Made by a program: the position numbers and the translations under genes. This document shows positions 20,601 through 48,877 of a stretch of DNA of 64,000 nt, piece after piece. Every line of letters begins with the position of its first letter. Position 1 is the first letter of the stretch. The stretch is from Sanyastnella coralliicola (GTDB lineage: Bacteria > Bacteroidota > Bacteroidia > Flavobacteriales_D > Sanyastnellaceae). Below the pieces are notes generated by a model. That model was not told the DNA's origin. It saw only the letters and a list, made by a program, of their open reading frames with translations, and searched no databases. The stretch spans positions 1,381,501 through 1,445,500 of the forward strand of contig NZ_CP132543.1 of the NCBI RefSeq assembly GCF_030845195.1, in the 5' to 3' direction.

Positions 20601-23177
20601 GTTTCTTGCGCGATCTCCTTTCGGTAATCTGATGCCGACATAGCTGTCGAAAGGAGAGAGCGGGATGCTGTGCGCGTCGATGCTGAAGTCACCTCCGGCT
20701 TCATAAGCGCGGGTGTTAAACACAGCGTTAAGATGTCCTGGAGCTTCTGATAAATCACTGATGTTGATATTGACTGAAGCAGTTCCATCTTCACCTACTT
20801 TCTTGTCAAAGACAGTGTTGGCAGGGGAATCCATTCGCCGCACAGGATCATCGAATTCAAAGTCTGGTAGGCGCCCGAAAGAAGTGTTAATCGGGTAGAG
20901 CGTCATTTCGATTTGAGTTCGCAAGTTTCTACCAGGAGCTCCGTGTAGCCAATTGACAGAGAGATCTCCAACGATGGCACGGTCACTGGCCTCAATCATA
21001 TCCTTTCCAAAGTCGAGCCCGATCTTCAAACGGTTTGGTTTGATCGTTTCCACTTTAAGACGCTTCGAGAAAGTAGCGTTACCTACTTTGATGCGAACTT
21101 GCCAATTCCCAGTCACCGCTTCAGGGTCTGTTGGAATCGCCCATGAAACGTGGTTTGATGCAGTGAGCAGTCGGTTCTCCTTATGAACATTTCTGTTCCG
21201 AGCATCCATCAATTCCAACTTGACAGGGTGATCCACCGGGATGCGATTCTCAGGGTCTTCGAGCATGAAACCAAGGAATAGGGTATCACCTGGTCGCCAC
21301 ACACCACGTTCGCCATAAATGAATCCTTTCAACCCATTTTGTGTGGCAGAACCACTCACGTCAAATGTAGAAAGCGAAAGTCCGAGCCCATTGGCTAGTT
21401 TCAAGTAGCTCTTTTGCTTGTTATGACTCGCTACACAGAGGAAAGGAACCTTGTCGTCAGCTTCGAACTGCGTGAATCCATCGGCGTCAGAAACGGCTCT
21501 GTCAATCTCTTGTCCTTGATAGTTCAAGAGTCGGACACTTGCGCCGCTTAATGGGTCTCCAGAGGCAATATCTGTGGTGAAAATCATCCATTTATTGTCT
21601 TTTCCTCGTTTCGCTGTCAAGCCGATATCTGTAGTCAAGAAATTACGACCTGTATGTCGGTATTGACGGTAGTAAGTACCATGACAAGGATTGTCACGCT
21701 GCTTGTAATCATAGTCCCAGTAGTAGTTATTCCAAGCTGAGTACCAGTAAGTATCGAAGTAATCCCAGTATGATGACTCTTCCTCACCGAAGGAGTCCCA
21801 ATCTTCCTCAAAGGCCTCAATGTCTTCTTCTGATTCGCTCAATCCATCTTCACAAGGGTAAACTGAATGCGCCATGCGGAATCCGATTTCTACTCTGTAG
21901 ATGGCAGCAGGTTCTACCTTAACTAGCTCATCGAGGTCGAGGTAGTAACGATTCCATTGATTCAGGTCGTTGCCATGGCCAGAGATATCAACCGTCTTTT
22001 TGCGAACCACGCGTCCAACTCGCTTCAGCTGATCTTCGCCTGAATAATGGCTTGTTTGAAGGAACTGAGGAATGTTGTCTTCATAAATGCGAATTGCACG
22101 CACATCAACAGCAGAAAGGGAAACTGCTTCGAAGGCAATCTTATTTTCATTCGCTGTAGGTAAAATGGTCTTATTCTGATCCGGCATGCGTACGGCTGGT
22201 TTCAAGCTTTCGAATTGAACCATGACCTCGAGGCTCTCTTTCAAACGGTAACCAGCGTAGTTCTTGATTCCGCTTTGAATCTCCAGTTTGGCCTCTCCGG
22301 TCTTACGCGTATCAGGGTACACACGAACAACGTTGCCATCCACTTCCACGCGCACGTCGTCGTCATCCCCAAGAATGAAAAGACCTCTTGTTGATTGCTG
22401 GTCATCAATTGGGTCAGAAAAGATGACGTTAACATATTGTTCTGGCTTCTGAACAACAGTTGTTTGGATGACTTTAAAATCAGCTAATCCAGGGATTTCT
22501 TGTGTGGTTGATCCTTCGCCTTTACCGCCAATGGTTGCGGCGTCCCAATTCAAAAAAAGCTCTCCACTTTCTTGCGCTCGTTCGACGCTATCGACAGTGA
22601 AGTAATGGGTGCGACCACTTTCATGCTGCCACGCTAAATTTCTTGTTTGTCCTGATTGCAGTGCACTGAGCAGTTCTTCTGCTTCGTCGCTTTGAACATC
22701 ATCTGCAGTGTAGAGCACACCACTGACATATTGCCATTTTGTATCGTCCACATCATACGGTGCTACCTCCGTTACTTGCACCGTTACACCTTGATCAAAT
22801 GTCCTCCAACCAAATTGAAAATCATCCAGATTCGTTTCACCGATGATCTCTTTGAGGTCTAGTTTAACCTTGTATGCGGTTCCAGAATCCATCCATTCAT
22901 TTGGAGTGAACTCGAGAACATTTCCATCCGTCCATTTAAGATCTCCGTCAATGGAAGGTTCGATGTCAATCCATGATAGATCAACACCGGATGTTGCTCC
23001 AGGAAGTAACTGTTCTGCATTGAAAACAACACGGACACTGGCTGTTCTTGAAATATGTCCTGCGGTATACGCACGAATAAAGGCACTGTATGCTTCATCC
23101 GCTGGTGGAATGTCAGGAGTAGTCTTGCAGCCAAAGAGGAACAAGATGAGCGCTAGGGGAAGGAGGAGTTGCTTCAT
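17604..23177 (-). CDS. Bacterial alpha-2-macroglobulin, large thioester lipoprotein
   Basis: 1857 aa. Lipoprotein signal MKQLLLPLALILFLFGC (Cys17) followed by Ig-like MG domains, a bait-type region, and the alpha-helical toroid with the thioester motif GCAEQ (C1400, Q1403). Thioester macroglobulins trap proteases by covalent attachment after bait cleavage; bacterial forms guard the periplasm. A Glu/Asp/Trp/Tyr-rich insert lies at about residues 450-505 (DYFDTYWYSAW region). The start is ATG 23177; the in-frame TTG at 23195 gives a poorer signal peptide. The usual partner gene pbpC (penicillin-binding protein 1C) is not adjacent. An exact 13-bp motif lies inside (19218-19230) and another just upstream. 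Confidence 0.93.
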   Translation of the reverse strand: MKQLLLPLALILFLFGCKTTPDIPPADEAYSAFIRAYTAGHISRTASVRVVFNAEQLLPGATSGVDLSWIDIEPSIDGDLKWTDGNVLEFTPNEWMDSGTAYKVKLDLKEIIGETNLDDFQFGWRTFDQGVTVQVTEVAPYDVDDTKWQYVSGVLYTADDVQSDEAEELLSALQSGQTRNLAWQHESGRTHYFTVDSVERAQESGELFLNWDAATIGGKGEGSTTQEIPGLADFKVIQTTVVQKPEQYVNVIFSDPIDDQQSTRGLFILGDDDDVRVEVDGNVVRVYPDTRKTGEAKLEIQSGIKNYAGYRLKESLEVMVQFESLKPAVRMPDQNKTILPTANENKIAFEAVSLSAVDVRAIRIYEDNIPQFLQTSHYSGEDQLKRVGRVVRKKTVDISGHGNDLNQWNRYYLDLDELVKVEPAAIYRVEIGFRMAHSVYPCEDGLSESEEDIEAFEEDWDSFGEEESSYWDYFDTYWYSAWNNYYWDYDYKQRDNPCHGTYYRQYRHTGRNFLTTDIGLTAKRGKDNKWMIFTTDIASGDPLSGASVRLLNYQGQEIDRAVSDADGFTQFEADDKVPFLCVASHNKQKSYLKLANGLGLSLSTFDVSGSATQNGLKGFIYGERGVWRPGDTLFLGFMLEDPENRIPVDHPVKLELMDARNRNVHKENRLLTASNHVSWAIPTDPEAVTGNWQVRIKVGNATFSKRLKVETIKPNRLKIGLDFGKDMIEASDRAIVGDLSVNWLHGAPGRNLRTQIEMTLYPINTSFGRLPDFEFDDPVRRMDSPANTVFDKKVGEDGTASVNINISDLSEAPGHLNAVFNTRAYEAGGDFSIDAHSIPLSPFDSYVGIRLPKGDRARNMLLTDTTHTVQVRTVDNDGKGVARKKLYYTVYKISWKWWWNTHYENLSDYIGRNSAAVVTRGEISTDTKGEGDFKFRVDYPSWGRYLVRVEDPESGHATGQITYIDWPGWAGRAQRENPEGETMLIVTPDKEEYEVGDQVSISFPGADGARALITIEDGSGIIGSDWMDTKNGSNTYTFKAEKGFAPNVFVSINLIQPHAQTANDKPIRIYGVARVKVTDPTTHISPKIEMPDELVPEEAYTVKVSESSGTGMSYTLAVVDEGLLGLTRYKTPNPHSKMYAQEALGVTTWDLFDQVIGAHAGEMAPLLGIGGDEENAETGPNKVNRFKPVVSYLGPFELKAGETAEHELLMPNYIGAVRVMVVARKGSAFGHAEKEVPVRKPLMVLGTLPRVLGPSEVVELPVTVFAMDENVKDVKVKVKLNGMLEHLGDDEEELEFSKIGDQIVNFRLKVRDLEGVASAEIIATGGGETARHTIELNVRNPNPPLSNRFVGVAEAGQSWSQEFDLIGMEGTNDLRLEVSGFRPVDLGRRLDYLLGYPHGCAEQTTSRAFPQLYIGDAVELTTEQKQRAKDNVIAGIDRLKRFQKENGGFSYWPSQTNINDWATTYVGHFLIEAKDKGFNVPDGMIERWVKYQNDIARNWRPYKRGNNNYQGYELPQAYRLFTLALAGEPNMSAMNRLRENDRMNAAAKWQLAAAYVLVGQEKVAEEITNGLLPDPEAYEFLSPHYGSRMRDMALIAEVMIISGERAKAGPLVEQLADNLSSGTWYSTQETAFALNAIGRFLKEESNTSLKYEYVFNGKSSALQNPQKTTVFHDLSVKQIHNNRLEIENKGERTLYLRLVSSGQPVEDQQPAENNGLDLTVVYLKPDGTPLDISQIEQGTDFIAKVQINHQSYRRNLRDVALTQIFPSGWEILNDRMLTAGANNYQSTWAEHKDIRDDRVLTYFNLYRRDPSVFYVRLNAAYVGEFFAPSTQVEVMYDGTINARTQGEWVTVLPAGLL
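19218..19230 (+). repeat. 13-bp dispersed motif TTCCGCGCTAGCG, exact copy
   Basis: Exact copy within the alpha-2-macroglobulin gene, antisense to it; the coding strand reads ASAE there. Confidence 0.85.
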
Positions 23178-23212
23178 GACGGATAGTTTGATCAAAACGA
23201 ATGTAATTCATT

Positions 23213-23312: not shown

Positions 23313-26300
23313 TTAATCACAAGCAATTCCAAATACTGCAAGGAAGCTCAATTGGTCAGTAGCGTTTACCGCTCCATCACCGTTCATGTCGGCTCCACAC
23401 CCATCTGAACATCCGTAATCTCCTAGAAGCATTAGGAGGTCTGCAACGTTTCGTTGACCGTCATTGTTGAAGTCACCCATACAAGGTGGAACCTCTTCGT
23501 CAGGATCAACGGTTCCGTTACAGTCATTGTCAATTCCTTCTTCAGTTGAAGGCGCTCCTGGATACATGTCACCGTCATTGTCGTTACAGTCTGTGTTATC
23601 TGCAACGTAGCCTGCTGGTTGACTACAAGCATCCATCGTTTCGTTTTCATCTCCGTATCCGTCGTTGTCTGTATCTGCATACCAAGTCGATGGAGCAATA
23701 CAAGAACCATCATCACATTGCGCTGCTGGGTCGTAGTTACATGCCGAAGCATCAGTACAACCATCAGGTAGGATACAAGACCCATCATCACATTGCGCTG
23801 CTGGATCGTAGTTACATGCCGAAGCATCGGTACAACCATCAGGTAGGATACACGATCCGTCATCACATTGTGCCGCAGGATCGTAGTTGCAAGCGGAAGC
23901 GTCAGTACATCCGTCAGGGAGAATACACGATCCATCATCACATTGCGCGGCTGGGTCGTAGTTACATGCGGAAGCATCAGTACAACCATCAGGCAGGATA
24001 CATGAACCGTCATCACATTGCGCAGCAGGATTGTAGTTACATGCCGAGGCGTCAGTACAACCGTCAGGAAGGATACACGTACCGTCGTCACAATCTGCGG
24101 CAGGGTCGTAGTTACAAGCTGCTGCATTCGTACATCCAGCGGTGTCTGTTCCACCACAGTTACCACATTCATCCAGTTGGAGACATGATCCATCATCCAT
24201 TGTTGCTGTTGGATCGTAGTTACAAGCTGTTGGGTCTGTACATCCCGGAACATCGACTGGATCGCCAACACATAGGCCATCGAAGACAACGGTAACGTCA
24301 TAGGTCATGTCGTTTCCAGTAGTCCATCCGTTCATGATGCTGAATGTCCAAGTTCCATTTCCAGTCAATGCTGAAGCAGATAGGTCAATGGAAGCAGTGT
24401 ACAAGCCATCTGCTGTTCCTTGCCAATCTCCTGGCCAAACTCCAAAGTTTCCTAATGAGTTGGCACAACCGAAGTCGGTATTGTAACCACCCCACATGTA
24501 GCAATCACCATTTGGATCTACGAGCTGCATCGCCACATCTGCAGGCCAGCTGCCCCCACCACCAACATTGGTGAAGTTCATTGTGATGGTCGCTAGGAAC
24601 GGTGAGCCTGAGCCGTCAAAATTAACGTCTGCTGTTGCCGTACCTCCGAGTGTCGCATTGATACTCACTGTGGATTCACAGTCACAATCGAAACCAACAG
24701 GAGGGTAGGCACATGAACCGTCGTCGCATACGGCCGTGTCTAGGTAGTTACAAGCCGTAGGGTCTGTACAACCATCAGGAACAATACATGATCCGTCATC
24801 ACAAGTTGCGTTCGAATCATAGTTGCAAGCCACAGGGTTTGTACAACCATCCGGAAGGATACACGATCCATCGTCACAACCAGCAGAGGCATCGTAATTA
24901 CATGCTGTTGCATTGGTACATCCTGGGAAAGTACAGCTACCATCATCTGCATCAGCAGTGGAATCGTAGTTACATGCCGCTGGATCTGTACATCCAGGGT
25001 TTGTTGCTCCTAGACAGAATAAGTGATCAGCCTGGGTACCAAAGTTGGCGACATCCATTGTGACCAGGGCTGTTCCCCCTTCATCTGTGATGACATAATT
25101 TCCATCGCTACCACATCCGAAAGTGGTCCCGGCAAGGCCGTCACCGTAGCTATCGAACATAGAGAAAGTAAAACACCCGTCAGGTAGGCAGAGCGTAATA
25201 TTATAGGTCGTTAGGTTACCGTATCCGGCACCAGAGAATACTTCGTTTCCATCGGAATCGTAGACAGCCCAAGATGATTCATTTCCCCAACAATCTGTCG
25301 TAAGTGTGAGTGTGACGTCATTGATTCCTCCACTCACGTAGTAAGAGCTCGATTGAGAATCATTGAGCGCAGATTCATCGGCGCCGCCATTATTCACGTC
25401 GGTAATATTGACTTCGAATGTAAAGGCACCGGTTCCCTCGTCAAATGCAGGCAGAGTAATCGTCTCGATTTCACCGGTAGCAAGGTTTCCTGTCCAGTTA
25501 TAAGTGTTGACAGTTCCTCCTTGTATACCGTATTCAATAGTCAGAGCCGTCAAGTTATCCTGACCGAAACATCCAATCACAATCTCAGGAGTCACTGATG
25601 TCTCACATACCGTTTCTTCTGGAGAATTGATCTGAACAATTCCAGCGTCTAGCTGAGGTAAAGTGAACAACGGAGCATTCCAAATACCACGACCGTATGT
25701 AGACGCGACTATGGTATTCGATGCATAATGAATCTCAAGCTCGGTAACCACAACGTTTGGAAGACCGTCTTTATATGGCTGCCAGCTAGCGAAGGTGTCG
25801 TCACGGTAGTACACACCCGCATCCGTACCAACGTACACAGCATCATTCGTTCCTTCATGGTAAGCGATACAGTTCGCAGGAATGTTTGGAAGACCATCAG
25901 AGATGTTAGTCCAAGTAGATCCAGCGTTATCACTGAAGTAAACTTTAGATCCATTGGTGTAACCTGAAAGCGTCACCCAAACGCGCGTCTCATCTGCAGG
26001 ATCAATTGCGATGTAAGTAATGAACTGGTTTGGAAGGCCAGAAAGTGCGCTGAAGTTTGTTCCGTCGGTACTTAAATACAGAGAAGCACTCTTTGAAGCA
26101 TAGATGTAGTTTGTGTTTGATTTCGCAACAGCCAATGCATCTATGTTTCCTGAGCCGAAACTACCAAGTCCCGTGAAGCTATTACCACCATCTGTAGAAC
26201 GGTAAACGGTAGACTTACCGATGTACATGGTATTCGGATCAATTGGATCAAGAATGTAAGGGGTAAGCCAGTCACCACCTTCGTTTACTCCAGTTCCGTT

Positions 26301-27923
26301 GCTTGCAACAATTTGGTTGAAGCTACCTCCACCATTCGTAGACTTGAAGATGGCACCATAGTAGAGCGCACCGTACATGATATCTTGATTGGTATAGTCA
26401 ATTGCGGATTCAAATCCGTCACCGCCAATCACACGAGACCAGTTGTTTCCGTCTTTGAGGTTGGTTCCGTTGTCTTGCCATCCTGAAATCACTCGGTTTT
26501 GGTTGGTCTGCGCCGTTCCTAGGCGGTAGATCTGAGCGATTTCTAGATTGCTTGATAAATCAGTGAATGAGCTTCCACCATTTGTTGTTCGGAATACACC
26601 ACCATCACACCCTACGAGCAGGGTAGAAGTACCAGGGATAAAGTTGAACCCGTGGTTGTCTGCGTGAACATAAGGAAGTCCAGCAGCGCCGTACCAGTGA
26701 CCAGTACAGCTCCAGTTTGTACCTCCATCTGTTGTTTTCCACACATTGACACCACCTACATAAACCGTGTTTGCATCGTTTGGATCTGCAGCTACTGCGA
26801 GATCGTACCAAGCTTGACCTCCAGTATCCGTTCCGTTCTCAGACCATCCAAGAAGGTTCGGGCTTGACGCCATTTGCGTGAAGTTCAATCCGCTGTCTAA
26901 TGAACGGTAGAACCCATAGAAACCTTGATTCGCAGAACTACCTGCAAGGATGTATACGACATCTTGGTTTGCTTCTGAAACAGTAATCGCAAGACGACTA
27001 ACCCCTGAAGAAGGAACTCCTGCAGTGATTTGAGTCCAGCTCGTTCCAGTGTCTGTTGAACGCCAGAACTGTGTGTTGTTTCCAGTAGCATACATCACGT
27101 TTGGGGTGTTCGGCTTCCATTCAATGTCTTTGAAGTTCCCGCTTTGCACTTGGGTCCATGATGAACCACCATCCGTCGTTTTGTAGATACCATTAGAAGT
27201 AGCAGCTAACAGGGTCAAATTATCCGTTGGATGCATGATCAAACGGTTGATGCGACGTGTTTGTGTCACATCCCAGTTCAAGCCTGTAGAGCTCCATGTA
27301 GCACCGTCATCTGTAGATTTAAGAACACCGAGAGAGTAAGTGTCTCCGGCATCTCCATCACCCGTTGCGATGTAAATGACATTGCTGTTCGAATGATCGA
27401 TCGCAACATCAGTCACACCGATGGATGCTAACAAATCTGTATTCAACAAAGACCACGAGCCACCGGCATTGGTTGAGCGCCATAATCCGCCTCCAGGTGC
27501 ACAAGCGTAGTACACGGAAGAGTTATTTGGATCAGTACGAACCATGTTGATTCGCCCGGCACCACCCCCAGAAGTTGGGATGTCAGTATTACCGAAGTAA
27601 GACCAGACACCGTTCATTCGCGCAGCTTCAGAAGGAGCATTTCTCATTTCATCCTGAACTGCATTCCAAGAGGCCATAGAAGAGAAGCGTTCCCCGCTAG
27701 GGTAAACACGAGGCTCCATAAACCACTCCCAGCGTTTGAACTGTTTAAACCCTTTTCCTTTTTCAACTTCTCGATCTGACCAATCTGCGTCGAAAGCATC
27801 TTGCACTTCGTAGAAGTTGATTTCAGGGTCAAGCATCATGTCACTCCAGTGCTCTCCTGCTTCTTGTCCGTATGACAAGCCCCAGGTAAAGAGCAATGCC
27901 ACTAGCCATAAAAGTCTTTTCAT
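23313..27923 (-). CDS. Giant secreted beta-propeller protein with P-domain, ACNYD repeats and dockerin-like C-terminus
   Basis: 1536 aa. Signal peptide MKRLLWLVALLFTWGLSYGQ. Residues about 100-730 are a sortilin/BNR-type beta-propeller with many STDGG(A/T)TW-like Asp-box turns. Then come a CARDB-like domain (LDAGIVQINSPEETVCE) and a DSYGDGL module (about 105 aa). Four Cys repeats of the form CTDPxACNYDxxAxxDDGSC follow, then an inserted proprotein-convertase P-domain-like segment (WPADVAMQLVDPNGDCYMWGG). Seven more repeats lead to a MopE-like metal-binding stretch (DTDNDGYGDENE to GIDNDCNGTVD). The extreme C-terminus has two dockerin-like calcium loops (GDFNNDGQRNVADLL, ADMNGDGAVNATDQL). No type A or B T9SS tail. 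Third gene of the cluster, 30 bp behind the metalloprotease. Start ATG 27923; the in-frame TTG at 27947 is less likely. Confidence 0.85.
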   Translation of the reverse strand: MKRLLWLVALLFTWGLSYGQEAGEHWSDMMLDPEINFYEVQDAFDADWSDREVEKGKGFKQFKRWEWFMEPRVYPSGERFSSMASWNAVQDEMRNAPSEAARMNGVWSYFGNTDIPTSGGGAGRINMVRTDPNNSSVYYACAPGGGLWRSTNAGGSWSLLNTDLLASIGVTDVAIDHSNSNVIYIATGDGDAGDTYSLGVLKSTDDGATWSSTGLNWDVTQTRRINRLIMHPTDNLTLLAATSNGIYKTTDGGSSWTQVQSGNFKDIEWKPNTPNVMYATGNNTQFWRSTDTGTSWTQITAGVPSSGVSRLAITVSEANQDVVYILAGSSANQGFYGFYRSLDSGLNFTQMASSPNLLGWSENGTDTGGQAWYDLAVAADPNDANTVYVGGVNVWKTTDGGTNWSCTGHWYGAAGLPYVHADNHGFNFIPGTSTLLVGCDGGVFRTTNGGSSFTDLSSNLEIAQIYRLGTAQTNQNRVISGWQDNGTNLKDGNNWSRVIGGDGFESAIDYTNQDIMYGALYYGAIFKSTNGGGSFNQIVASNGTGVNEGGDWLTPYILDPIDPNTMYIGKSTVYRSTDGGNSFTGLGSFGSGNIDALAVAKSNTNYIYASKSASLYLSTDGTNFSALSGLPNQFITYIAIDPADETRVWVTLSGYTNGSKVYFSDNAGSTWTNISDGLPNIPANCIAYHEGTNDAVYVGTDAGVYYRDDTFASWQPYKDGLPNVVVTELEIHYASNTIVASTYGRGIWNAPLFTLPQLDAGIVQINSPEETVCETSVTPEIVIGCFGQDNLTALTIEYGIQGGTVNTYNWTGNLATGEIETITLPAFDEGTGAFTFEVNITDVNNGGADESALNDSQSSSYYVSGGINDVTLTLTTDCWGNESSWAVYDSDGNEVFSGAGYGNLTTYNITLCLPDGCFTFSMFDSYGDGLAGTTFGCGSDGNYVITDEGGTALVTMDVANFGTQADHLFCLGATNPGCTDPAACNYDSTADADDGSCTFPGCTNATACNYDASAGCDDGSCILPDGCTNPVACNYDSNATCDDGSCIVPDGCTDPTACNYLDTAVCDDGSCAYPPVGFDCDCESTVSINATLGGTATADVNFDGSGSPFLATITMNFTNVGGGGSWPADVAMQLVDPNGDCYMWGGYNTDFGCANSLGNFGVWPGDWQGTADGLYTASIDLSASALTGNGTWTFSIMNGWTTGNDMTYDVTVVFDGLCVGDPVDVPGCTDPTACNYDPTATMDDGSCLQLDECGNCGGTDTAGCTNAAACNYDPAADCDDGTCILPDGCTDASACNYNPAAQCDDGSCILPDGCTDASACNYDPAAQCDDGSCILPDGCTDASACNYDPAAQCDDGSCILPDGCTDASACNYDPAAQCDDGSCILPDGCTDASACNYDPAAQCDDGSCIAPSTWYADTDNDGYGDENETMDACSQPAGYVADNTDCNDNDGDMYPGAPSTEEGIDNDCNGTVDPDEEVPPCMGDFNNDGQRNVADLLMLLGDYGCSDGCGADMNGDGAVNATDQLSFLAVFGIACD
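23700..24245 (-). repeat. 75-bp tandem repeat block (seven ACNYD repeats)
   Basis: Seven repeats of a 20-residue Cys unit plus linker, the last five encoding nearly the same 25 residues (CTDASACNYDPAAQCDDGSC plus ILPDG). Two neighbouring units differ at only about three bases, while others with the same protein sequence differ at many third positions. A second block of four units is at 24711-24995, separated by the P-domain-like segment. Confidence 0.9.
24711..24995 (-). repeat. First block of four ACNYD repeats in the propeller gene
   Basis: Encodes four diverged units, CTDPAACNYDSTADADDGSC to CTDPTACNYLDTAVCDDGSC, preceding the P-domain-like insert. More divergent than the 23700-24245 block. 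Confidence 0.88.
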
Positions 27924-27953
27924 ATGTCGTAGGTAAGGTGTTGTCAATAGTTG

Positions 27954-30900
27954 TTAGTCACACGCAGTGCCGAACACAGCAAAGAAGCTGAGTCCATCAG
28001 CTTGTGTAACCACTCCATCTCCGTTCATATCAGCCATACAGTTCACTGAACAGCCGTAATCACCGAGGAGGATGAGTAGGTCAGAAACGTTGATTTGTCC
28101 ATCGTTGTTGAAGTCACCAGCACATGGTGGAACCTCTTCGTCAGGATCAACTGTTCCATTACAATCATTATCAATGCCTTCTTGCGTAGAAGGACCTCCA
28201 GGGTACATATCCCCGTTATTGTCGTTACAATCTGTATTGTCAGCAACATAGCCAACAGGTTGAGCACAAGCCATCACCATGTCAGCGTCATCACCGAATC
28301 CATCGTTGTCTGTATCTGCGTACCAAGCTGTTGGCGCAATACATGAGCCATCATCACATGTTGCCGCAGGATCGTAGTTACATGCTGAGGCGTCTGTACA
28401 TCCATCAGGAAGGATACATGAGCCATCATCACATGTTGCCGCAGGATCATAGTTACATGCGGAAGCATCGGTACATCCATCAGGTAGTACACAAGACCCG
28501 TCATCGCATACGGCTGCAGGATCGTAGTTACACGCTGAGGCATCAGTACATCCATCCGGAAGGATACACGAACCATCGTCACATGTGGCAGCAGGGTCGT
28601 AGTTACACGCCGCAGCATTTGTACAGCCGTCAGGAAGGATACAAGAACCGTCGTCACATTGAGCTGCTGGATCGTAGTTACAAGCCGAAGCATCAGTACA
28701 TCCATCAGGAAGTTGACATGAGCCATCATCACAAACGGCCGCTGGATCATAGTTACACGCCGCAGCATTCGTACATCCGTCAGGTAGGATACAAGATCCA
28801 TCGTCACACGTTGCAGAAGGATCATAGTTACACGCTGAAGCATCCGTACATCCATCAGGAAGTTCACATGAACCGTCGTCAATCGTTGCTACAGCGCTGA
28901 AGTTACAAGCGGCAGGATCAGTACATCCAAAACATGTAAAGTCACAAGAACCGTCATGAACTGTTGCCGTTGCATCGTAGTTACATGCTGTCGGATCAGT
29001 ACATCCAGGAGTTCCAACAGGAACGCAGAAATTCTCTACCACTTGGCTACCGTAGTTAGCTACAGCCATTGATACGAGTACATTTCCAAATTCGTCAGTC
29101 ACGTCATAGATTCCGTCAATCGCACATCCAGAAGCAATTCCAGAAAGTCCGTCACCGAAGCTGTCATTGATAGTCAAGTCGTAACAGTCTGCAGCAAGAC
29201 AGAAGTCATAAGTGTATGTCGTTTGGTCAGCGAGGGTATTTCCTGCTACCGTTTGAATGACTGTTCCATCATCAGCAGCTAGAGTCCAGCTAACTTCTTC
29301 ACCCCAACAGTCTGTGAGTAGAGTGAACGTTGCATTGGTTGCTCCAGAAACCGTATTGAAGTTGCTTGAACCAGCGTTATTCGTAGGGTTGTCATCCGTT
29401 CCTCCGTTTGGATTCTGAACATCCGCGTTGAAGACGTGAGCGCCTCCAGGAATGGTCATCGTTGGCAAAGTGATCGTTGTTGATTCACCTGTTGCCAAAG
29501 AACCCGTCCAGTTGAAAGTAGTTGGTGAACCACCGTCTACATCGTATACAAGGTCGAAGCTTGTCAAGTCGAAGTTTCCGAAGTTGGAAACAACTACCTC
29601 TGGAGTGATTTGATCACCACAGTAATCTCCACCTGGTTCGTTGATAGATAGGATACCAGCATCTAGATCATTCGCACCTACTGCAGGTCCGATCGTGAAG
29701 TTCTGGTTTGAAATATCGAAGAAGATGTTGTTCGATGCCTTCACCTTGATTCGTGCTGTAGAAGATTCGCCAGCAGGAATCAATACCAATTCAGATCCAT
29801 CATTCGCAGTGTTAGCTAGAAGGAGCGTTGGGTAGGTAAGACCACCGTCCAAAGAAAGGTAGATGTCAACGTTTGAACAGTTGATAGGTGCAAGGTCAGT
29901 ATTCGCTACATCCCATGTTACGGTTTGGAAAGTGTTTCCAGGGTAAACTACCGCCGTATTTGGCGCTGTTACTACGAACGGACCACCAACATCAGAAACA
30001 TCAAAGGTTACCTGATCGTCATTTACACCACCAGCACCTGCAACGTTGTCACGCACGGTACAACGGAAGGTCAATGAACGTGTGTAGTTCGGAAGGAACT
30101 CTCCGATCACCGTAGTGTTGTTCACCAAATCAGTAATACGAGGGAATACACGTGTAGGATCTGTAACAGATGGCCATGAACGGAAGATTGGCTGGTTTCC
30201 AGAAGGGTTAGTAAGGTTGTTGTCACCACCAGCGGTTGCTGGACCAAGATCATATTCTTCCCAGTTGTAGGTAATCTCGTCGCCATCGGCATCAGAACCA
30301 ACCGCTGTCAACTCAAATGGAGTCGAAATAGGAATAGTCCATCCTCCAGGGCCCGCGTCAACAGTAGGAGGGGTGTTGCCTGTATTGGTTGTTACTGGAC
30401 ATGTTCCACCATTTCCGTTTACAACGAAGTTCCACATCTCATTAATACTGTGATTGTGGAAGTGATCATCACTATTGCTTTGAAGGTTCGGAGGACAAAT
30501 ACCTGCGTAACCCATAATAGTGCTTGCTGAACCTGGTTCGAAGGCTGCTGAACCAGCGCGGTTACAACTGTTGTTCTGTGTGTGGTTACCACCGAATTGG
30601 TGTCCCATCTCGTGACAAACGTAATCGATATCGAACGGGTCACCTACTGGTGTCCCTTGTCCTGTCACACCACGTGCCTTGCTTCCTCCACAAGGAGACT
30701 GAAGTTGAGCGATACCTCCACCACCAGTTGAGTAAACGTGACCAATGTCGTAGTTCGCACTTCCGATGTTAGCATCACACGTTGTCTGGTTTTGGTTCAG
30801 CATGGCTCCACCATTTCCGTTATCGTAGGGATCCGTAGCTCCATTCAAGAAGATGACTTGATCGTTGTTCGCCACGATGATCATACGAATCGCTGCATCA

Positions 30901-31688
30901 CGTTCGTATACCCCATTCACACGTGTCATTGAGGTATTCATGGCTGCAAGTGCATCTGCGGTTGTTCCTCCATGGAACTGAGCATATTCACCTGTACATG
31001 CCAAAGCCAGGCGGTAAGTGCGAAGCTGCGCCCCAAAAGGAGTGCGGGCTCCAGCGCCCATACCCATCGTACGAACGTCTTTCTGCTGTCGCTTCTTAAT
31101 CGGACGATCAGATTCAATCGCCTCATCATATTCATTCGTGTCAATGTCATCTGGCATTACCGGAGGAAGTTCGTTGAAGACCTTCGTTGTTGTTGCGTAG
31201 AAAGATGACTTCGTGTACGACATGTAGTATTCGTCTGTGTTCAGACTTATTGGGTCGATGTACACGGTTTCTCCAGCACGTAAAATCATCGCGTGGAAGC
31301 CCTTTTGAGTAAGGTCAAAACGGATCGTCGCTGTCTTATCGTCGATTCCTTGTCCAAGGTATGAACGGATAAAAGGATAGCGTGATTGAAGCTCCGGAGC
31401 CATTACCGAACTCTCTACAAAGCGGAAGCTCTGCGTTGTTCCGTCAGGCATTGGGATCGAGATGATCGTACCTGAATTTCGAACTGAAACCTCAGCTTCA
31501 TCAGGTGCCTGATCAAGGATAGATTCCAGAAGTGAACGTTCGATTTGAATGCCTCGGTATTCTTCCGGGTTAATGGTTTGGTCATTTCTGATCGGCAGCT
31601 GTGCGTCAGACCAGTATGATTGAGCTGAAAGGCTAATGCAAAAAATGCAGAATACAGCCGTAGCTACAAAAGTGTAGACGTTCCTCAT
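27954..31688 (-). CDS. Secreted reprolysin-like metalloprotease (M12B type) with ACNYD repeats and dockerin-like C-terminus
   Basis: 1244 aa. Signal peptide ending ISLSAQ; a prodomain-like region to about residue 215; a metzincin zinc protease domain about 215-430. The zinc motif is HEMGHQFGGNH (H359, E360, H363, H369) and the Met-turn is STIMGYAGICPP. Fibronectin/PKD-like domains follow, then a CARDB-like domain, a DSFGDGL module (TDCWGEEVSW to FCV) and nine CTDxxACNYDxxAxxDDGSC repeats. A MopE-like stretch and two dockerin-like calcium loops (GDFNNDGQINVSDLL, ADMNGDGVVTQADGL) end the protein. The last 150 or so residues are close to those of the neighbouring propeller protein. Predicted extracellular endopeptidase. 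Middle gene of the cluster. Confidence 0.9.
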   Translation of the reverse strand: MRNVYTFVATAVFCIFCISLSAQSYWSDAQLPIRNDQTINPEEYRGIQIERSLLESILDQAPDEAEVSVRNSGTIISIPMPDGTTQSFRFVESSVMAPELQSRYPFIRSYLGQGIDDKTATIRFDLTQKGFHAMILRAGETVYIDPISLNTDEYYMSYTKSSFYATTTKVFNELPPVMPDDIDTNEYDEAIESDRPIKKRQQKDVRTMGMGAGARTPFGAQLRTYRLALACTGEYAQFHGGTTADALAAMNTSMTRVNGVYERDAAIRMIIVANNDQVIFLNGATDPYDNGNGGAMLNQNQTTCDANIGSANYDIGHVYSTGGGGIAQLQSPCGGSKARGVTGQGTPVGDPFDIDYVCHEMGHQFGGNHTQNNSCNRAGSAAFEPGSASTIMGYAGICPPNLQSNSDDHFHNHSINEMWNFVVNGNGGTCPVTTNTGNTPPTVDAGPGGWTIPISTPFELTAVGSDADGDEITYNWEEYDLGPATAGGDNNLTNPSGNQPIFRSWPSVTDPTRVFPRITDLVNNTTVIGEFLPNYTRSLTFRCTVRDNVAGAGGVNDDQVTFDVSDVGGPFVVTAPNTAVVYPGNTFQTVTWDVANTDLAPINCSNVDIYLSLDGGLTYPTLLLANTANDGSELVLIPAGESSTARIKVKASNNIFFDISNQNFTIGPAVGANDLDAGILSINEPGGDYCGDQITPEVVVSNFGNFDLTSFDLVYDVDGGSPTTFNWTGSLATGESTTITLPTMTIPGGAHVFNADVQNPNGGTDDNPTNNAGSSNFNTVSGATNATFTLLTDCWGEEVSWTLAADDGTVIQTVAGNTLADQTTYTYDFCLAADCYDLTINDSFGDGLSGIASGCAIDGIYDVTDEFGNVLVSMAVANYGSQVVENFCVPVGTPGCTDPTACNYDATATVHDGSCDFTCFGCTDPAACNFSAVATIDDGSCELPDGCTDASACNYDPSATCDDGSCILPDGCTNAAACNYDPAAVCDDGSCQLPDGCTDASACNYDPAAQCDDGSCILPDGCTNAAACNYDPAATCDDGSCILPDGCTDASACNYDPAAVCDDGSCVLPDGCTDASACNYDPAATCDDGSCILPDGCTDASACNYDPAATCDDGSCIAPTAWYADTDNDGFGDDADMVMACAQPVGYVADNTDCNDNNGDMYPGGPSTQEGIDNDCNGTVDPDEEVPPCAGDFNNDGQINVSDLLILLGDYGCSVNCMADMNGDGVVTQADGLSFFAVFGTACD
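28341..29006 (-). repeat. Tandem block of nine ACNYD repeats in the metalloprotease gene
   Basis: Nine consecutive units of about 75 bp encode CTDASACNYDPAATCDDGSC-type repeats with ILPDG linkers. Their antisense strand produces long spurious open frames. Confidence 0.9.
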
Positions 31689-31709
31689 AGTACTCTATTA
31701 GTCAAGGTT

Positions 31710-31731
31710 GGGCGCCACTCAACTGGCGCCC
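31710..31731 (-). other. Strong hairpin between the serine protease and metalloprotease genes
   Basis: GGGCGCCA (31710-31717) and TGGCGCCC (31724-31731) form a perfect 8-bp GC-rich stem with a 6-nt loop in the 55-bp gap between the two genes. There is no T-run on either side, so it is not a standard intrinsic terminator. It may protect or process the transcript and set different levels for the first and second genes. Confidence 0.6.
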
Positions 31732-31743
31732 CTGATTGGTTAC

Positions 31744-34242
31744 TTAATTACAAGGCGTTCCGAAGAACGATAGGAATGTTAGGAAGTCGGAAGAGCTGGT
31801 GTTTCCATCTCCATCGAGATCTCCAGTACATCCTCCAACGCAGCCGTAATCAGCAAGCATCATGAGGAGGTCTGCGATGTCTCGGTTTCCATCTCCGTTC
31901 ATATCCCCTGGACAAGCTGACAGTTCATCACCGTCAATGTTCCCGTCACAGTTATTATCGATGTCTTCACCGGTACCAGGTGCACCAGGGTAGACATTTC
32001 CGTTCATATCATCACAGTCGGTATTGACTGCGCTGTATCCAGCTTCTGGTCCGCAGAGAAGCACTGCTGCGCCAGCTCCAAATCCATCACTATCACCGTC
32101 AACATAGAAGGTCATTGATGGGAAGGTACAGCTGCCATCATCACATGTAGCGGCTGGGTCGTAGTTACATGCAGAGGCATCAGTACAACCATTAGGTAGG
32201 ATACATGATCCATCATCTGTAGTTGCTGCTGGATCGTAATTACATGCCGTAGCGTCTGTACAACCTGGGATTCCAGGAAGTGTCAAACAGAAATCATGTG
32301 TTGCCTGTGCCCCGAAGTTACCTCCAGCTACCATTTGGGCGTGGGTTGTACCAAACTCATCTACAAGGATGTAATCTCCAATGACCCCTTGGTATTGCAG
32401 TCCGTCGCCGAAGCTATCGTATACATTCAGCTGGTAACAACCTTCAGGCAGACAGTACGAGTATGAGTAAGTTGTTTGTGTAGCAGCGTAAGGACCATCC
32501 GAGAACAAGATTGTTCCCTGGTCATCACGAAGATCCCAAGTGGTTTCTCCTGGATAGTTATCCGTTGTAATGTCGAAATCGATTGTAATTCCAGTACCAG
32601 CAGTTGAGAAGCTACTTGAACCACTATCGTTCGTATTATTCTCGTCCGTTCCTCCATTTGGATTGACTACCGAAGCATTGAAAGTGTGTGCACCATCTGC
32701 CAGTGTTTGCTGTGGTAAAGTCACGTTCACCGTGTTTCCAGAAGCAAGGGCTCCAGACCACGCTTGTGACATCGTAGCACCACCATCTACTTGGTATTCA
32801 ATCGTAAACGAAGTCAAAGTAGTTGTACCCGCGTTGCGTACCGTTACCTCAGGCGTAACGTTAGAAGTACAGTAAATTCCATCAGGCTCAACCACATTCA
32901 ATAATTGTGCGTCGAGCGCTACCGAAGGTGCATTTGGATCATACCCATCAATGACCGTATTAGAACAGCCAGGGGCGAGGTAAGTACAAATGCTAGGGAA
33001 TGTCAGGTCAAAACGACCGTAGTAGTCGTTCACGTTATTGGAACATGAAGCTTGTCCACCGTAAAGTTGACCGATGATACGTTGGTTTTGATCAAACAAA
33101 GGTGATCCTGAAGATCCTGGTTCTGTAGTACCGTCTTCCCAGTCGAAGATTCTCCAACATTGCGCACCGCCGAAGGTCGCTTGTCCGGCAGCATCTGTAT
33201 CGAAAGAGATTTTCTTCAAGTCACCACTTGGGTGGTGAATAGCTACTTGGTTTGAAGGGAAATTTCCTGTTGCATCCCATCCAGCGTAGAATGGGTTGTA
33301 AGCCGTAGGAACAGGGTTCCCGTTGTTAATTTCTAGTAATGCATAATCCGTACCGGCACCGCTTGAAAGCAGGGTTGAACCAGATACGGTGTCAAATGCG
33401 CCAACGTTGTTTCCAGAACACGTGGTGCTTTGCCAGTTAAATCGGAATACCCATGAGGCCACACTACCACCTAAACAGTGGTTCGCAGTCAAGAAATATG
33501 GATGTCCGTCGTTTGCTGTATTGTTCACCAAAGCCCCCGTACAGATTCCATTACCGTTGACTACGATCATGGCTACTGAGTTGATTTGGTCTTCCCATCC
33601 AGCTGAAACAGGACAGATAACATTGTTGTTACATGCTCCAGAGTCACCAATTCCACGGGCAACTACATCTAGATCACGGTAAGCGTGTGTAAGTGTTTCA
33701 ATCTGAAGTTCACCTGTTCCGATTTGATTCGCCGGCTCACGGTATTCAACGATAATTTCATCGCTTGGAATAGGGTAGGTTCCGAATCCGAGGTCATCTC
33801 TGTTGTTCTCTGAGGTGAACGCACCGAGAATGTGTAGATGATCTGCAGAATAAACGAATACTTCACCACCTTCAGGAATCTTGAAAATGTCGAAGCTCAA
33901 GTTCAAAGAATGCGCTCCAGGAGATGTTAGTTTGAGAAGCCAAACGCGATCACCATTTGGCAATTCATGCCATTGACCTGAGTTATTCAGGTTTCGTCCT
34001 AAAACGAAGTTCTTTCCAAAACGGTAGGGAGCGTCTTTAAATTCATTGTTGATTTCGTCTTCAGCCAACATGGCATCAACATCAAATGGTGGCATTTCCA
34101 TTACCGGGACGTGCCAATTGATTTTGTTATTCTCGAATGTAGCAGGGGAGCCTCCTTGACTTATCTGAGCGAAGCCTTGGGTGTATAGTAGCATAAGGCA
34201 AGCGCAAAGCGCGAGCTTCAGCAAAGGTTTTAACGTGGTCAT
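31744..34242 (-). CDS. Secreted trypsin-like serine protease with ACNYD repeats and dockerin-like C-terminus
   Basis: 832 aa. Signal peptide MTTLKPLLKLALCACLMLLYTQGFAQ. A proregion is followed by a chymotrypsin-fold serine protease at about residues 205-440. The catalytic triad is visible: H255 in LTANHC, D299 in GTDYALLEI and S378 in PGSSGSPL. Its organisation resembles the lysyl-endopeptidase group, but specificity is not readable. Then follow a CARDB-like domain, the DSFGDGL module, two ACNYD repeats, a MopE-like stretch, and two dockerin-like loops (GDMNGDGNRDIADLL, GDLDGDGNTSSSDFL). Start ATG 34242; the open frame extends 67 codons upstream but with no signal peptide. First gene of the cluster. 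Confidence 0.9.
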   Translation of the reverse strand: MTTLKPLLKLALCACLMLLYTQGFAQISQGGSPATFENNKINWHVPVMEMPPFDVDAMLAEDEINNEFKDAPYRFGKNFVLGRNLNNSGQWHELPNGDRVWLLKLTSPGAHSLNLSFDIFKIPEGGEVFVYSADHLHILGAFTSENNRDDLGFGTYPIPSDEIIVEYREPANQIGTGELQIETLTHAYRDLDVVARGIGDSGACNNNVICPVSAGWEDQINSVAMIVVNGNGICTGALVNNTANDGHPYFLTANHCLGGSVASWVFRFNWQSTTCSGNNVGAFDTVSGSTLLSSGAGTDYALLEINNGNPVPTAYNPFYAGWDATGNFPSNQVAIHHPSGDLKKISFDTDAAGQATFGGAQCWRIFDWEDGTTEPGSSGSPLFDQNQRIIGQLYGGQASCSNNVNDYYGRFDLTFPSICTYLAPGCSNTVIDGYDPNAPSVALDAQLLNVVEPDGIYCTSNVTPEVTVRNAGTTTLTSFTIEYQVDGGATMSQAWSGALASGNTVNVTLPQQTLADGAHTFNASVVNPNGGTDENNTNDSGSSSFSTAGTGITIDFDITTDNYPGETTWDLRDDQGTILFSDGPYAATQTTYSYSYCLPEGCYQLNVYDSFGDGLQYQGVIGDYILVDEFGTTHAQMVAGGNFGAQATHDFCLTLPGIPGCTDATACNYDPAATTDDGSCILPNGCTDASACNYDPAATCDDGSCTFPSMTFYVDGDSDGFGAGAAVLLCGPEAGYSAVNTDCDDMNGNVYPGAPGTGEDIDNNCDGNIDGDELSACPGDMNGDGNRDIADLLMMLADYGCVGGCTGDLDGDGNTSSSDFLTFLSFFGTPCN
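32128..32265 (-). repeat. Two ACNYD repeats in the serine protease gene
   Basis: Two units, CTDATACNYDPAATTDDGSC and CTDASACNYDPAATCDDGSC, the shortest array of the three genes. Confidence 0.88.
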
Positions 34243-46039: not shown

Positions 46040-48877
46040 ATGAAGCAATTCTATCTTTTATTAGCAGCTTTTTTGGCTGTCCCAACAATGGCTCTCTCTC
46101 AGTCGTTCGCTGACATGGGTGAAGAGTTACCAAACGAATATCACTCTGGCGGAACTGTCGGTGTAGTTGACATGAACAATGACGGCTACGATGATATCGT
46201 TACTCTCGATAACGCTAACACGCTCATCGTACTTTACCAAGGTGCTGATGGGTGGACAGAAGTGAACTACGGTCAGATCTCAGGATCTAACCAGTGGGGA
46301 TTCTCTGTTGGAGACATGAACAACGACGGTCACAATGATGTGATTTCTGGAGGTGCTTACGATGGTGTTCACTTCATCTCGATTGACGAGCAAGGCGTAT
46401 CTGAACAGTTCGATCTACAGAACGGAAGCATGTTCATGCAAGACTGTAACATGCACGACATCGATAACGATGGTTACCTAGATTTCTTCGGATGTCACGA
46501 TGATGCTACTTCTCGCATGTGGCGAAACAATGGTTCCGGAGCAATGGTACCTAACGAATTCATGATTGATTTCGAATCATACGATTTCTCTGATTATCCA
46601 GACACAGACCACTCAGGAAACTATGGTTCAGTTTGGTGTGATGTAGACGACGATGGTGACAATGATCTTTTCATCGCGAAGTGTCGTCAGTTCGTTTCTG
46701 ATCCAATGGATCCACGTCGTATTAACCAGCTTTGGATTAACGATGGTGAAGGTAACTTCACAGAAGAAGCAGAAGCTCACGGACTCGTATTCTACGAGCA
46801 GTCATGGACAGCAGATTTTGCTGATTACGATAACGATGGTGACTTTGATGCCTTGATCACGAACCACTCAGCAAACATGATGCTTTTTGAAAACGACGGA
46901 AGTGGAAACTTCACGGATGTATCAGAAGCAGCAGGTGTGGACGTGAACGGATTCTTCCTTCAAGCGAAGATGATCGACTTTGACAACGATGGCTACAACG
47001 ACATCGTTTATGCTGGAGGTGTTCACTCATACTTCCACAACAATGGTGATGGAACATTCACCGAGGAGCCAAACAAGTTCCCTTACAATGATACCATGCA
47101 CAGCTTCGGTATTGGAGACCTTAACCGCGATGGTTTTGTAGACCTATACGCTAGCTACGGTAACATCTACGTTGACGCTGACGGCAACAACCCCGATCGC
47201 GTTTGGATGAACGAAACGAATGATAACAACTGGGTGGTATTCGACCTAGAAGGAATCATCTCAAACCAGAACGCAGTAGGGGCAAAGGTGAAGATCTACG
47301 GAGACTTCGGAGTACAAGTACGTGAAGTGCGCGCTGGAGAAAGCTACGGTATCGTCAACACGTTCCAACTACACTTCGGTCTAGGTGATGTGACTGAGAT
47401 CGATGAAGTAGTGATCGAATGGCCAAGCGGAATGGAGACAGTAATCACTGATCCAGAAATCAACACTTTCCATACGATTTTCGAATCTGAGTGTCAGTTG
47501 GCAAATGTTGACATCATTGCTAACGGACCACTAGAAATCTGTCCGGGTGAATCAGTAAACATCGAAGCACCTATGGGTTACACTTACTTATGGAGCAACG
47601 GTGAAACAGGAATGAGCATAGATGCTGCTGCCACTGGCAACTACAGCGTTACAGTATTCGATGAGAACGGATGTCCGGGAGCTTCAAATATTGTTCAGGT
47701 TGTTGTAGTGCAGCCGGAACTTCCTTCAGTTACCGTGAACGGTGATACTCAATTCTGTGAAGGTGGTTCTGTAGAATTGATCTCTTCCAATGCTGATAGC
47801 TACGAGTGGTCAGAAGGAACAGAATCACAAGTATTGACCGTTACTGAATCAGGAACGTACTACGTAACTGTTCCTGGTGTTTGTGCAGATGACTTGGAGT
47901 CTGAAGAAATCACAGTGGTAGTATTGGATGCGCCTGATACACCATCTGTTCCAGATGAGAGCATTGAGAACCCTGGTACTGCCACATTAAACGGCACAGG
48001 AAATGAGCTTCACTGGTACGAAAATGAAATGGACGCTGATCCGATCTTCGTTGGTAACACGTTTGAAACGCCATTCTTGAACAGCACAACTTCATTCTGG
48101 GTAGAAGACGTAAATACTTACGGTGGAGTACAAGGAAACGGAGGTAAAGAGAATAACGATGAAGTGAACGGACAGTACCACTTCAACTCTAACTTCTGGT
48201 TGGTATTCGATGCAAACGAAGACATCATTCTCGATAACGTGAAAGTGTACGCTGGAAACGAAGGCATGCGCTCAATCGCAGTAATCGATAACAACGGAAC
48301 AATCGTAGCGCAAGGAGACTTCAACGTGCCACAAGGAGAGTCAGTAGTTGAACTAGGCTTCTTTGTACCAGCAGGTACAGGGTACGGTTTACGCAGCTTG
48401 GATGATGATCCACAACTATGGCGTGAAGATGATAACTCTGAACAAGCATACCCATATGATCTAGGTGGATTGGCGACAATCGTTTCTAGTTCAGTAGGTG
48501 GAGCTGGAGCAACAGAATACTACTACTTCTTCTACGATTGGAATGTATCTACTCCAAGTTGGGAGTGTGTATCTGACCGTATCGAGGTGATCGTTACTGT
48601 TGTTGGAATTGAAGAAATCGAAGCGTTGGCTTCACTAAACGTATTCCCTAACCCTGCTTCTGACATGGTGACAGTGGCGTACGAATTGACAGCGCAAAAA
48701 GACGTTGAGCTACGTATTACAGACCTTGCAGGTCGTACGATTGTAAATAAGCAATTGTTGTCTGCAGTTGGCGCAAATCAAGAGGTGGTTAACCTTTCTG
48801 AGTTTGCTACTGGAGTATACGAGCTTCAACTTGTGATCGATGGTCAAACAGCTGCTTACAAGCTGATCATCGAATAA
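46040..48877 (+). CDS. CRTAC1-like FG-GAP/ASPIC protein with T9SS type A tail
   Basis: 945 aa. Signal peptide ending MALSQ. Residues about 25-400 hold repeated VCBS/FG-GAP calcium motifs (DMNNDGYDDIV, DIDNDGYLDFF, DYDNDGDFDAL, DFDNDGYNDIV, DLNRDGFVDLY). An ASPIC/UnbV domain follows at about 400-485 (GAKVKIYGDFGVQVREVRAG, IEWPSG). Two Ig-like/PKD-like domains come next, then a beta-sandwich region with NELHWYEN, and a type A sorting domain (LNVFPNPASDMVTVAY to the end). Predicted to be cell surface or secreted; ligand unknown. A bidirectional terminator follows. Confidence 0.9.
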   Translation: MKQFYLLLAAFLAVPTMALSQSFADMGEELPNEYHSGGTVGVVDMNNDGYDDIVTLDNANTLIVLYQGADGWTEVNYGQISGSNQWGFSVGDMNNDGHNDVISGGAYDGVHFISIDEQGVSEQFDLQNGSMFMQDCNMHDIDNDGYLDFFGCHDDATSRMWRNNGSGAMVPNEFMIDFESYDFSDYPDTDHSGNYGSVWCDVDDDGDNDLFIAKCRQFVSDPMDPRRINQLWINDGEGNFTEEAEAHGLVFYEQSWTADFADYDNDGDFDALITNHSANMMLFENDGSGNFTDVSEAAGVDVNGFFLQAKMIDFDNDGYNDIVYAGGVHSYFHNNGDGTFTEEPNKFPYNDTMHSFGIGDLNRDGFVDLYASYGNIYVDADGNNPDRVWMNETNDNNWVVFDLEGIISNQNAVGAKVKIYGDFGVQVREVRAGESYGIVNTFQLHFGLGDVTEIDEVVIEWPSGMETVITDPEINTFHTIFESECQLANVDIIANGPLEICPGESVNIEAPMGYTYLWSNGETGMSIDAAATGNYSVTVFDENGCPGASNIVQVVVVQPELPSVTVNGDTQFCEGGSVELISSNADSYEWSEGTESQVLTVTESGTYYVTVPGVCADDLESEEITVVVLDAPDTPSVPDESIENPGTATLNGTGNELHWYENEMDADPIFVGNTFETPFLNSTTSFWVEDVNTYGGVQGNGGKENNDEVNGQYHFNSNFWLVFDANEDIILDNVKVYAGNEGMRSIAVIDNNGTIVAQGDFNVPQGESVVELGFFVPAGTGYGLRSLDDDPQLWREDDNSEQAYPYDLGGLATIVSSSVGGAGATEYYYFFYDWNVSTPSWECVSDRIEVIVTVVGIEEIEALASLNVFPNPASDMVTVAYELTAQKDVELRITDLAGRTIVNKQLLSAVGANQEVVNLSEFATGVYELQLVIDGQTAAYKLIIE

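Follow-up and report, generated by a model that had tools for sequence, protein, structure and literature searches.

What does the C-terminus shared by three neighbouring genes of a 64,000-nucleotide stretch of DNA (the window) do? The genes code for two proteases and a propeller protein, and their common end (the tail) had been read in the original prediction either as an alternative sorting or anchoring signal or as a dockerin binding a cohesin-like partner, with the three proteins assembling into a calcium-dependent proteolytic complex. The features concerned are:

31744..34242, minus strand: W3, secreted trypsin-like protease (PF13365, E 7e-10), with CARDB, DSFGDGL module, 2 CNYD repeats, MopE-like stretch and double tail (domain and motif scan)
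31747..31914, minus strand: W3 tail, two calcium-loop units with Cys, at the stop codon (tail profile and fold model)
32128..32262, minus strand: W3 CNYD repeats (2; motif)
27954..31688, minus strand: W2, secreted reprolysin-like metalloprotease (PF13583, E 4e-30), with DSFGDGL module, 9 CNYD repeats, MopE-like stretch and double tail (domain and motif scan)
27957..28124, minus strand: W2 tail, two calcium-loop units with Cys, at the stop codon (tail profile)
28341..29003, minus strand: W2 CNYD repeats (9; motif)
23313..27923 (counted from its ATG), minus strand: W1, secreted BNR/sortilin-type propeller (PF15902, E 3e-27), with DSYGDGL module, 11 CNYD repeats, MopE-like stretch and double tail (domain and motif scan)
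23316..23483, minus strand: W1 tail, two calcium-loop units with Cys, at the stop codon (tail profile)
23700..24992, minus strand: W1 CNYD repeats (11, in two groups of 4 and 7; motif)
46040..48877, plus strand: FG-GAP/UnbV_ASPIC protein used for comparison, ending in a type A tail and sharing 63% identity with L041, a tail-bearing protein encoded elsewhere in the genome

Much of the predicted architecture holds. The three genes run in the same direction with gaps of 55 and 30 bp (the latter with the ATG start of W1), the CTDxxACNYD repeats number exactly 2, 9, and 11 in W3, W2, and W1, the DSFGDGL module, or its DSYGDGL form, occurs once per protein, and all three proteins end in two calcium-loop units with a terminal cysteine. 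Two modules attributed to the whole trio are less uniform: CARDB exceeds the Pfam cut-off in W3, scores under it in W2, and has no listing in W1, and the MopE-like stretch is below cut-off in W3 and a motif only in W2 and W1. The CARDB, DSFGDGL, and CNYD modules are not specific to tail proteins, as they also occur in type A proteins of the same genome. Downstream of W1, after 117 bp and in the same orientation, comes a gene for a bacterial alpha-2-macroglobulin, a protease trap (window 17604-23195, minus strand).

The tail is far from restricted to the trio. A profile built from seven tails, three from the window and four from the first Dockerin_1 matches, gave 63 matches in the window's own 4.1 Mb genome (best E 1e-28), which is more than chance. 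Reading the 62 ORFs behind these matches left 61 usable tail proteins, one (L078) being set aside for an in-frame stop; this tail-like match (G000:C1:1842481-1842570) is possibly a decayed tail gene. The module lies at most three residues from the stop in 59 of the 61 proteins (the exceptions being L039 and L064), and 51 have a cysteine within their last five residues. Classified by eye, the tails comprise 24 double ones ending in Cys, 27 single ones, 9 double ones without terminal Cys, and L039, where a double tail is followed by a 45-residue extension; a motif script split them 26/25/8/2 instead. Signal-peptide-like starts were found in 57 of the 62 ORFs by a crude heuristic, and in 4 more by eye. 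The last unit of 50 tails has the consensus C-x-x-D-[LFM]-[ND]-x-D-G-x-V-x-x-x-D-L-L-x-F-L-x-x-[FY]-G-x-x-C, and both cysteines and the calcium ligands are conserved over many unrelated cargo proteins.

The position of the tail invites comparison with the sorting domains of the type IX secretion system (T9SS). A review, as excerpted (PMC10202324), distinguishes C-terminal domains (CTDs) of types A, B, and C and gives type A an Ig-like beta fold. The T9SS domains (type A, type B, and type C/ChiA) and the tail are alike in being C-terminal and in occurring on proteins with signal peptides; they differ in that type A (TIGR04183) has the Ig-like beta fold, as described in that excerpt, and the tail a predicted dockerin fold. 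As predicted, the tail is neither type A nor type B: the source genome has at least 150 type A matches (the best 150 of 232 candidates) and 48 type B matches (TIGR04131), 45 of them over cut-off, and none among the best 150 or the 48 overlaps the 61 tail ORFs. NCBIfam scans of the tail pieces list neither model. Among 10 further ORFs scanned in the window, one ends in type B, as expected, and three in type A, the claim for the whole window having been four.

On one and the same cargo, the tail can stand at the C-terminus where a known CTD would be, both among relatives of W3 and in pairs of paralogues within the genome. The catalytic region of W3 is present in 136 of 150 genomes of the order. 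Among 95 such loci, 20 (13 distinct) carry the tail, all 60-97% identical to W3, and 64 (all distinct at their ends; 31-53% identity) carry PNP-type tails, scored as type A-like by a PNP-motif proxy rather than by a profile match. Four of the W3-relative tails were missed by the pattern and assigned by eye (L167, L184, L185, and L186). The remaining 11 have neither tail: five ran off the contig (L163, L197, L207, L232, and L233), two are cut short (L216 and L236), L234 has no recognised tail, L188 and L190 have another tail, and L239 has a different dockerin pair. The orthologues of the trypsin-like protease outside the clade end in type A-like tails, and this between-species exchange is probably one replacement event. 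The named relatives with at least 60% identity come from metagenome-assembled genomes labelled by their submitters Flavobacteriales or Cryomorphaceae, and in one case Chryseobacterium gleum.

In L188 and L190, the W3 orthologue and a second ORF on the same contig have another recurrent tail where type A would be, made of two GDxNxNGxxxYTGxxNDRDxIL-type repeats with QQLP at the stop and without an NCBIfam match at E 1; it may reflect a second replacement, unrelated to the first, in a different clade of Flavobacteriales. The W3-like protease of L239 (35% identity), from a record labelled Candidatus Neomarinimicrobiota, has a plain pair of dockerin-type loops at its end where a type A-like tail might be expected.

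Within the genome, the clearest exchange involves L041 and the window ORF 46040-48877, which are 63% identical over 890 residues and start to diverge at the tail cassette; past the shared region, L041 has CNYD repeats, then a MopE-like stretch and finally the double tail, and its paralogue has a type A domain. Seven of the 61 tail proteins have such long-coverage paralogues in a set of 41 type A ORFs, 40 of which were picked mainly for length and not at random, the other being the W3 paralogue L157. Further pairs are W3/L157 (41%), L074/L308 (56%), L090/L274 (50%), and L094/L285 (40%), and the paralogues of L070 and L072 are weak (27-32%). Any match at E 1e-8 or better to the 41 ORFs is found for 33 of the 61, many through shared repeats or domains.

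Because it occupies the place of the usual surface-secretion signal of its relatives, the tail is probably an alternative address label. The shared end would then be a portable, clade-specific C-terminal targeting cassette, serving for sorting or anchoring, a reading to which we give a probability of about 0.58 from sequence comparisons. The first of the two predicted answers thus appears to be the better one, given the C-terminal position, the signal-peptide-like starts, and the exchange with type A on the same cargo. Under the targeting reading, the signal peptide would take the protein through Sec, and the protein would end with one or two Cys-framed units followed by 0-4 residues. The double tail is predicted to fold as a dockerin, each unit would bind one calcium, and each could be closed by a disulfide from Cys to Cys. 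Since the tail stands where type A does on otherwise like cargo, its role is most likely equivalent, carrying the protein to the cell surface or holding it there. The likeliest path would be export by the T9SS, with the tail recognised in some way that differs from the ordinary type A route; the genome keeps PorU/PorV-type genes and type A cargo, with C25 (PorU-type) and PorV-family genes close together at about 149.6-153.1 kb. Both proteases and the propeller of the window would be ordinary cargo of the tail system. Several points count against the targeting cassette, namely the PorV counts and the lack of a neighbouring partner (see following), the weaker genus-level correlation, the probably single W3 event, and the kinship with a dockerin family.

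The nearest named relative is NF041540 (dockerin_GC, the NCBIfam "GC-type dockerin domain-anchored protein"), so that the module is structurally of a known kind, a dockerin near NF041540. The model matches 30 of 31 double tails at 0.01 or better, 9 of these at 1e-6 or better, which is roughly its cut-off. Of 43 single units it matches 37 at E 1 or better, the single-unit form covering about half of the model. Most members do not reach the 29 bits that the curators set as cut-off, the W1 tail among them with 28.0, and no NF041540 listing at E 0.1 is obtained with W1, W2, and W3 at full length. The phrase "GC-type dockerin" was not found in the literature searched. Pfam Dockerin_1 (PF00404) matches 24 of the 31 double tails at 0.001 or better, and double tails have the two F-hand calcium loops and the dockerin fold of that family according to Pfam, PDB profiles, and predicted fold; the 27 single-unit tails have one calcium loop only. 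Dockerins come first among solved relatives by sequence (2y3n_B, E 1e-10). They are also the best structural matches of a model of the W3 tail made from 26 aligned tails (mean pLDDT 84, pTM 0.67), with 2y3n_B at a TM-score of 0.75 by query length, a Foldseek E of only 0.0019, and, over 59 aligned residues, Z 9.8 and rmsd 2.0. The structure prediction suggested for the C-terminal end hence points to a dockerin fold, and the "dockerin-like" label was apt as far as profiles and predicted fold go. The predicted fold is common to cellulosomal dockerins and the tail, but the tail units are Cys-framed and 27 of 61 are single. What is apparently undescribed is the use in place of a T9SS signal and the half-size form: no description of a dockerin-type tail replacing a T9SS signal was found in the literature searched, which covered open-access journal papers.

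A dockerin is classically a docking module. The tail might accordingly be a working dockerin that attaches proteins to a surface receptor and so builds a cellulosome-like coat, without itself being an export signal; the receptor would be a divergent cohesin or another protein, perhaps itself exported by the T9SS. The fold and the profile matches speak for docking, and there is a precedent: the part of PMC8542988 available to us describes in Ca. Stygibacter (Cloacimonadota) C-terminal dockerin enzymes together with a cohesin scaffoldin that bears a T9SS-type CTD. We nevertheless consider docking unlikely, if a serious contender. Pfam Cohesin has no match at E 0.01 in the source genome (best E 0.66) or in any of the 15 genomes that represent the tail-rich genera g175, g180, and g181, nearly half of the tails are single units, and docking alone leaves unexplained how proteins that have lost their type A domain cross the outer membrane.

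Three kinds of partner were sought and rejected. Among 61 family genomes, Pfam Cohesin matches at E 0.01 or better in 14 and passes the cut-off in 5, without tracking tail abundance, and this, with its absence from the source genome, leaves the predicted cohesin partner unsupported, although a divergent cohesin may have escaped the profile. A dedicated PorV-like shuttle was dropped as PorV-family counts are not raised in tail-rich genera (2-4 genes per genome in g175, g180, and g181 versus 4-7 in g176 and g178). No common neighbour gene was seen by eye in three clusters of tail genes of the source genome and one locus of another family.

The tail might also be only a calcium-stabilised end cap, spread by gene conversion and carrying no address, the proteins being periplasmic or leaving the cell otherwise, e.g. 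in vesicles. In keeping with such a cap, we know of no T9SS link for dockerin-like modules near NF041540. However, the strict C-terminal position, the retention of both cysteines and calcium ligands across many unrelated cargo proteins, and the precise exchange with a known sorting domain together argue for selection on the position of the tail, and we hold the cap to be quite improbable.

The distribution of the tail also counts for the targeting cassette. At E 1e-5 or better, 4 of 395 genomes across the phylum match the tail profile: the source genome, one of the same family (G045), one of another family of the order (G041), and G064. In G041 a single tail, truly C-terminal, occurs once; the G064 match (L102) lies inside its protein and is a dockerin-like stretch. 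At E 1e-4, 49 of 150 genomes of the order match: 40 of the 41 that belong to the same family, and 9 of 109 in the rest, the latter with 1-3 matches each. At least 40 matches each (matches, not proteins) are found in 26 family genomes. Among the 57 tail loci L099-L155, one of which (L112) is unreadable, the stop follows the tail closely, after no more than a few residues, in 54; L102 and L116 are the exceptions. The expansion is thus restricted to one, mostly uncultured, family of Bacteroidota. In another family of the order, L256:5208-7889 holds its genome's only tail match, on one protein, and the product of the neighbouring gene has a type A-looking end.

Within the family, tail and type A counts tend to be inversely related. 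Genera g180 and g181 have at least 55 tail matches versus 31-48 type A matches. Among the matches listed for the 24 family genomes of 2.6 Mb or less, the two counts are inversely ranked (rho -0.90), and the same holds for loose counts per Mb in the 39 genomes common to the tail and type A surveys (rho -0.57); at the level of the 17 genera, rho is -0.47 (p 0.057). As these inputs are loose counts or lower bounds, of matches and not of proteins, and as the genomes are related, the inverse relation is supportive of the targeting cassette and not proof of it. A bolder form of that reading, which we put forward tentatively and at somewhat below even odds, would add the tail to the known classes of T9SS export signal, as the first to have an EF-hand/dockerin fold where the others have a beta domain. 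Such a signal would work even when reduced to a half-dockerin of 27 residues closed by a disulfide, would be recognised by a calcium-dependent shuttle yet to be discovered, and would perhaps already be commoner than type A in g180 and g181.

The gene order W3-W2-W1 is kept in six related contigs (L177, L178, L181, L183, L184, and L238), W1 being cut by the contig end in L183 and L238, and the tail is also found at the end of the closed W2 and W1 orthologues; in L177 the frame of W1 has one in-frame stop, with the tail further down the same frame. That W1, W2, and W3 assemble on the surface into a calcium-dependent proteolytic complex scaffolded by the propeller is very improbable: the conserved order speaks for it, but no cohesin domain is listed for the three in the domain scan, L160, L179, and L186 have W3 and W2 but no W1 next to them, and a tail present on 61 proteins of the genome cannot specify this trio. 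A trio-specific complex was for this last reason set aside as the meaning of the tail, and the predicted three-protein complex found no support; it was the proposed genome-wide search for the module that revealed how much wider its use is. The trio has the look of a conserved cluster for protein degradation whose products bear the tail that is common in its clade.

Counts of T9SS cargo usually rely on searches for tails of types A and B. If the tail is an equivalent address, a large part of the surface proteome of one Flavobacteriales-type family would have been overlooked, or labelled as dockerins without a cohesin. The tail would then be a minimal, possibly calcium-dependent, export or anchoring tag, and the natural pairs of like cargo bearing either tail make the question directly testable by fusions.
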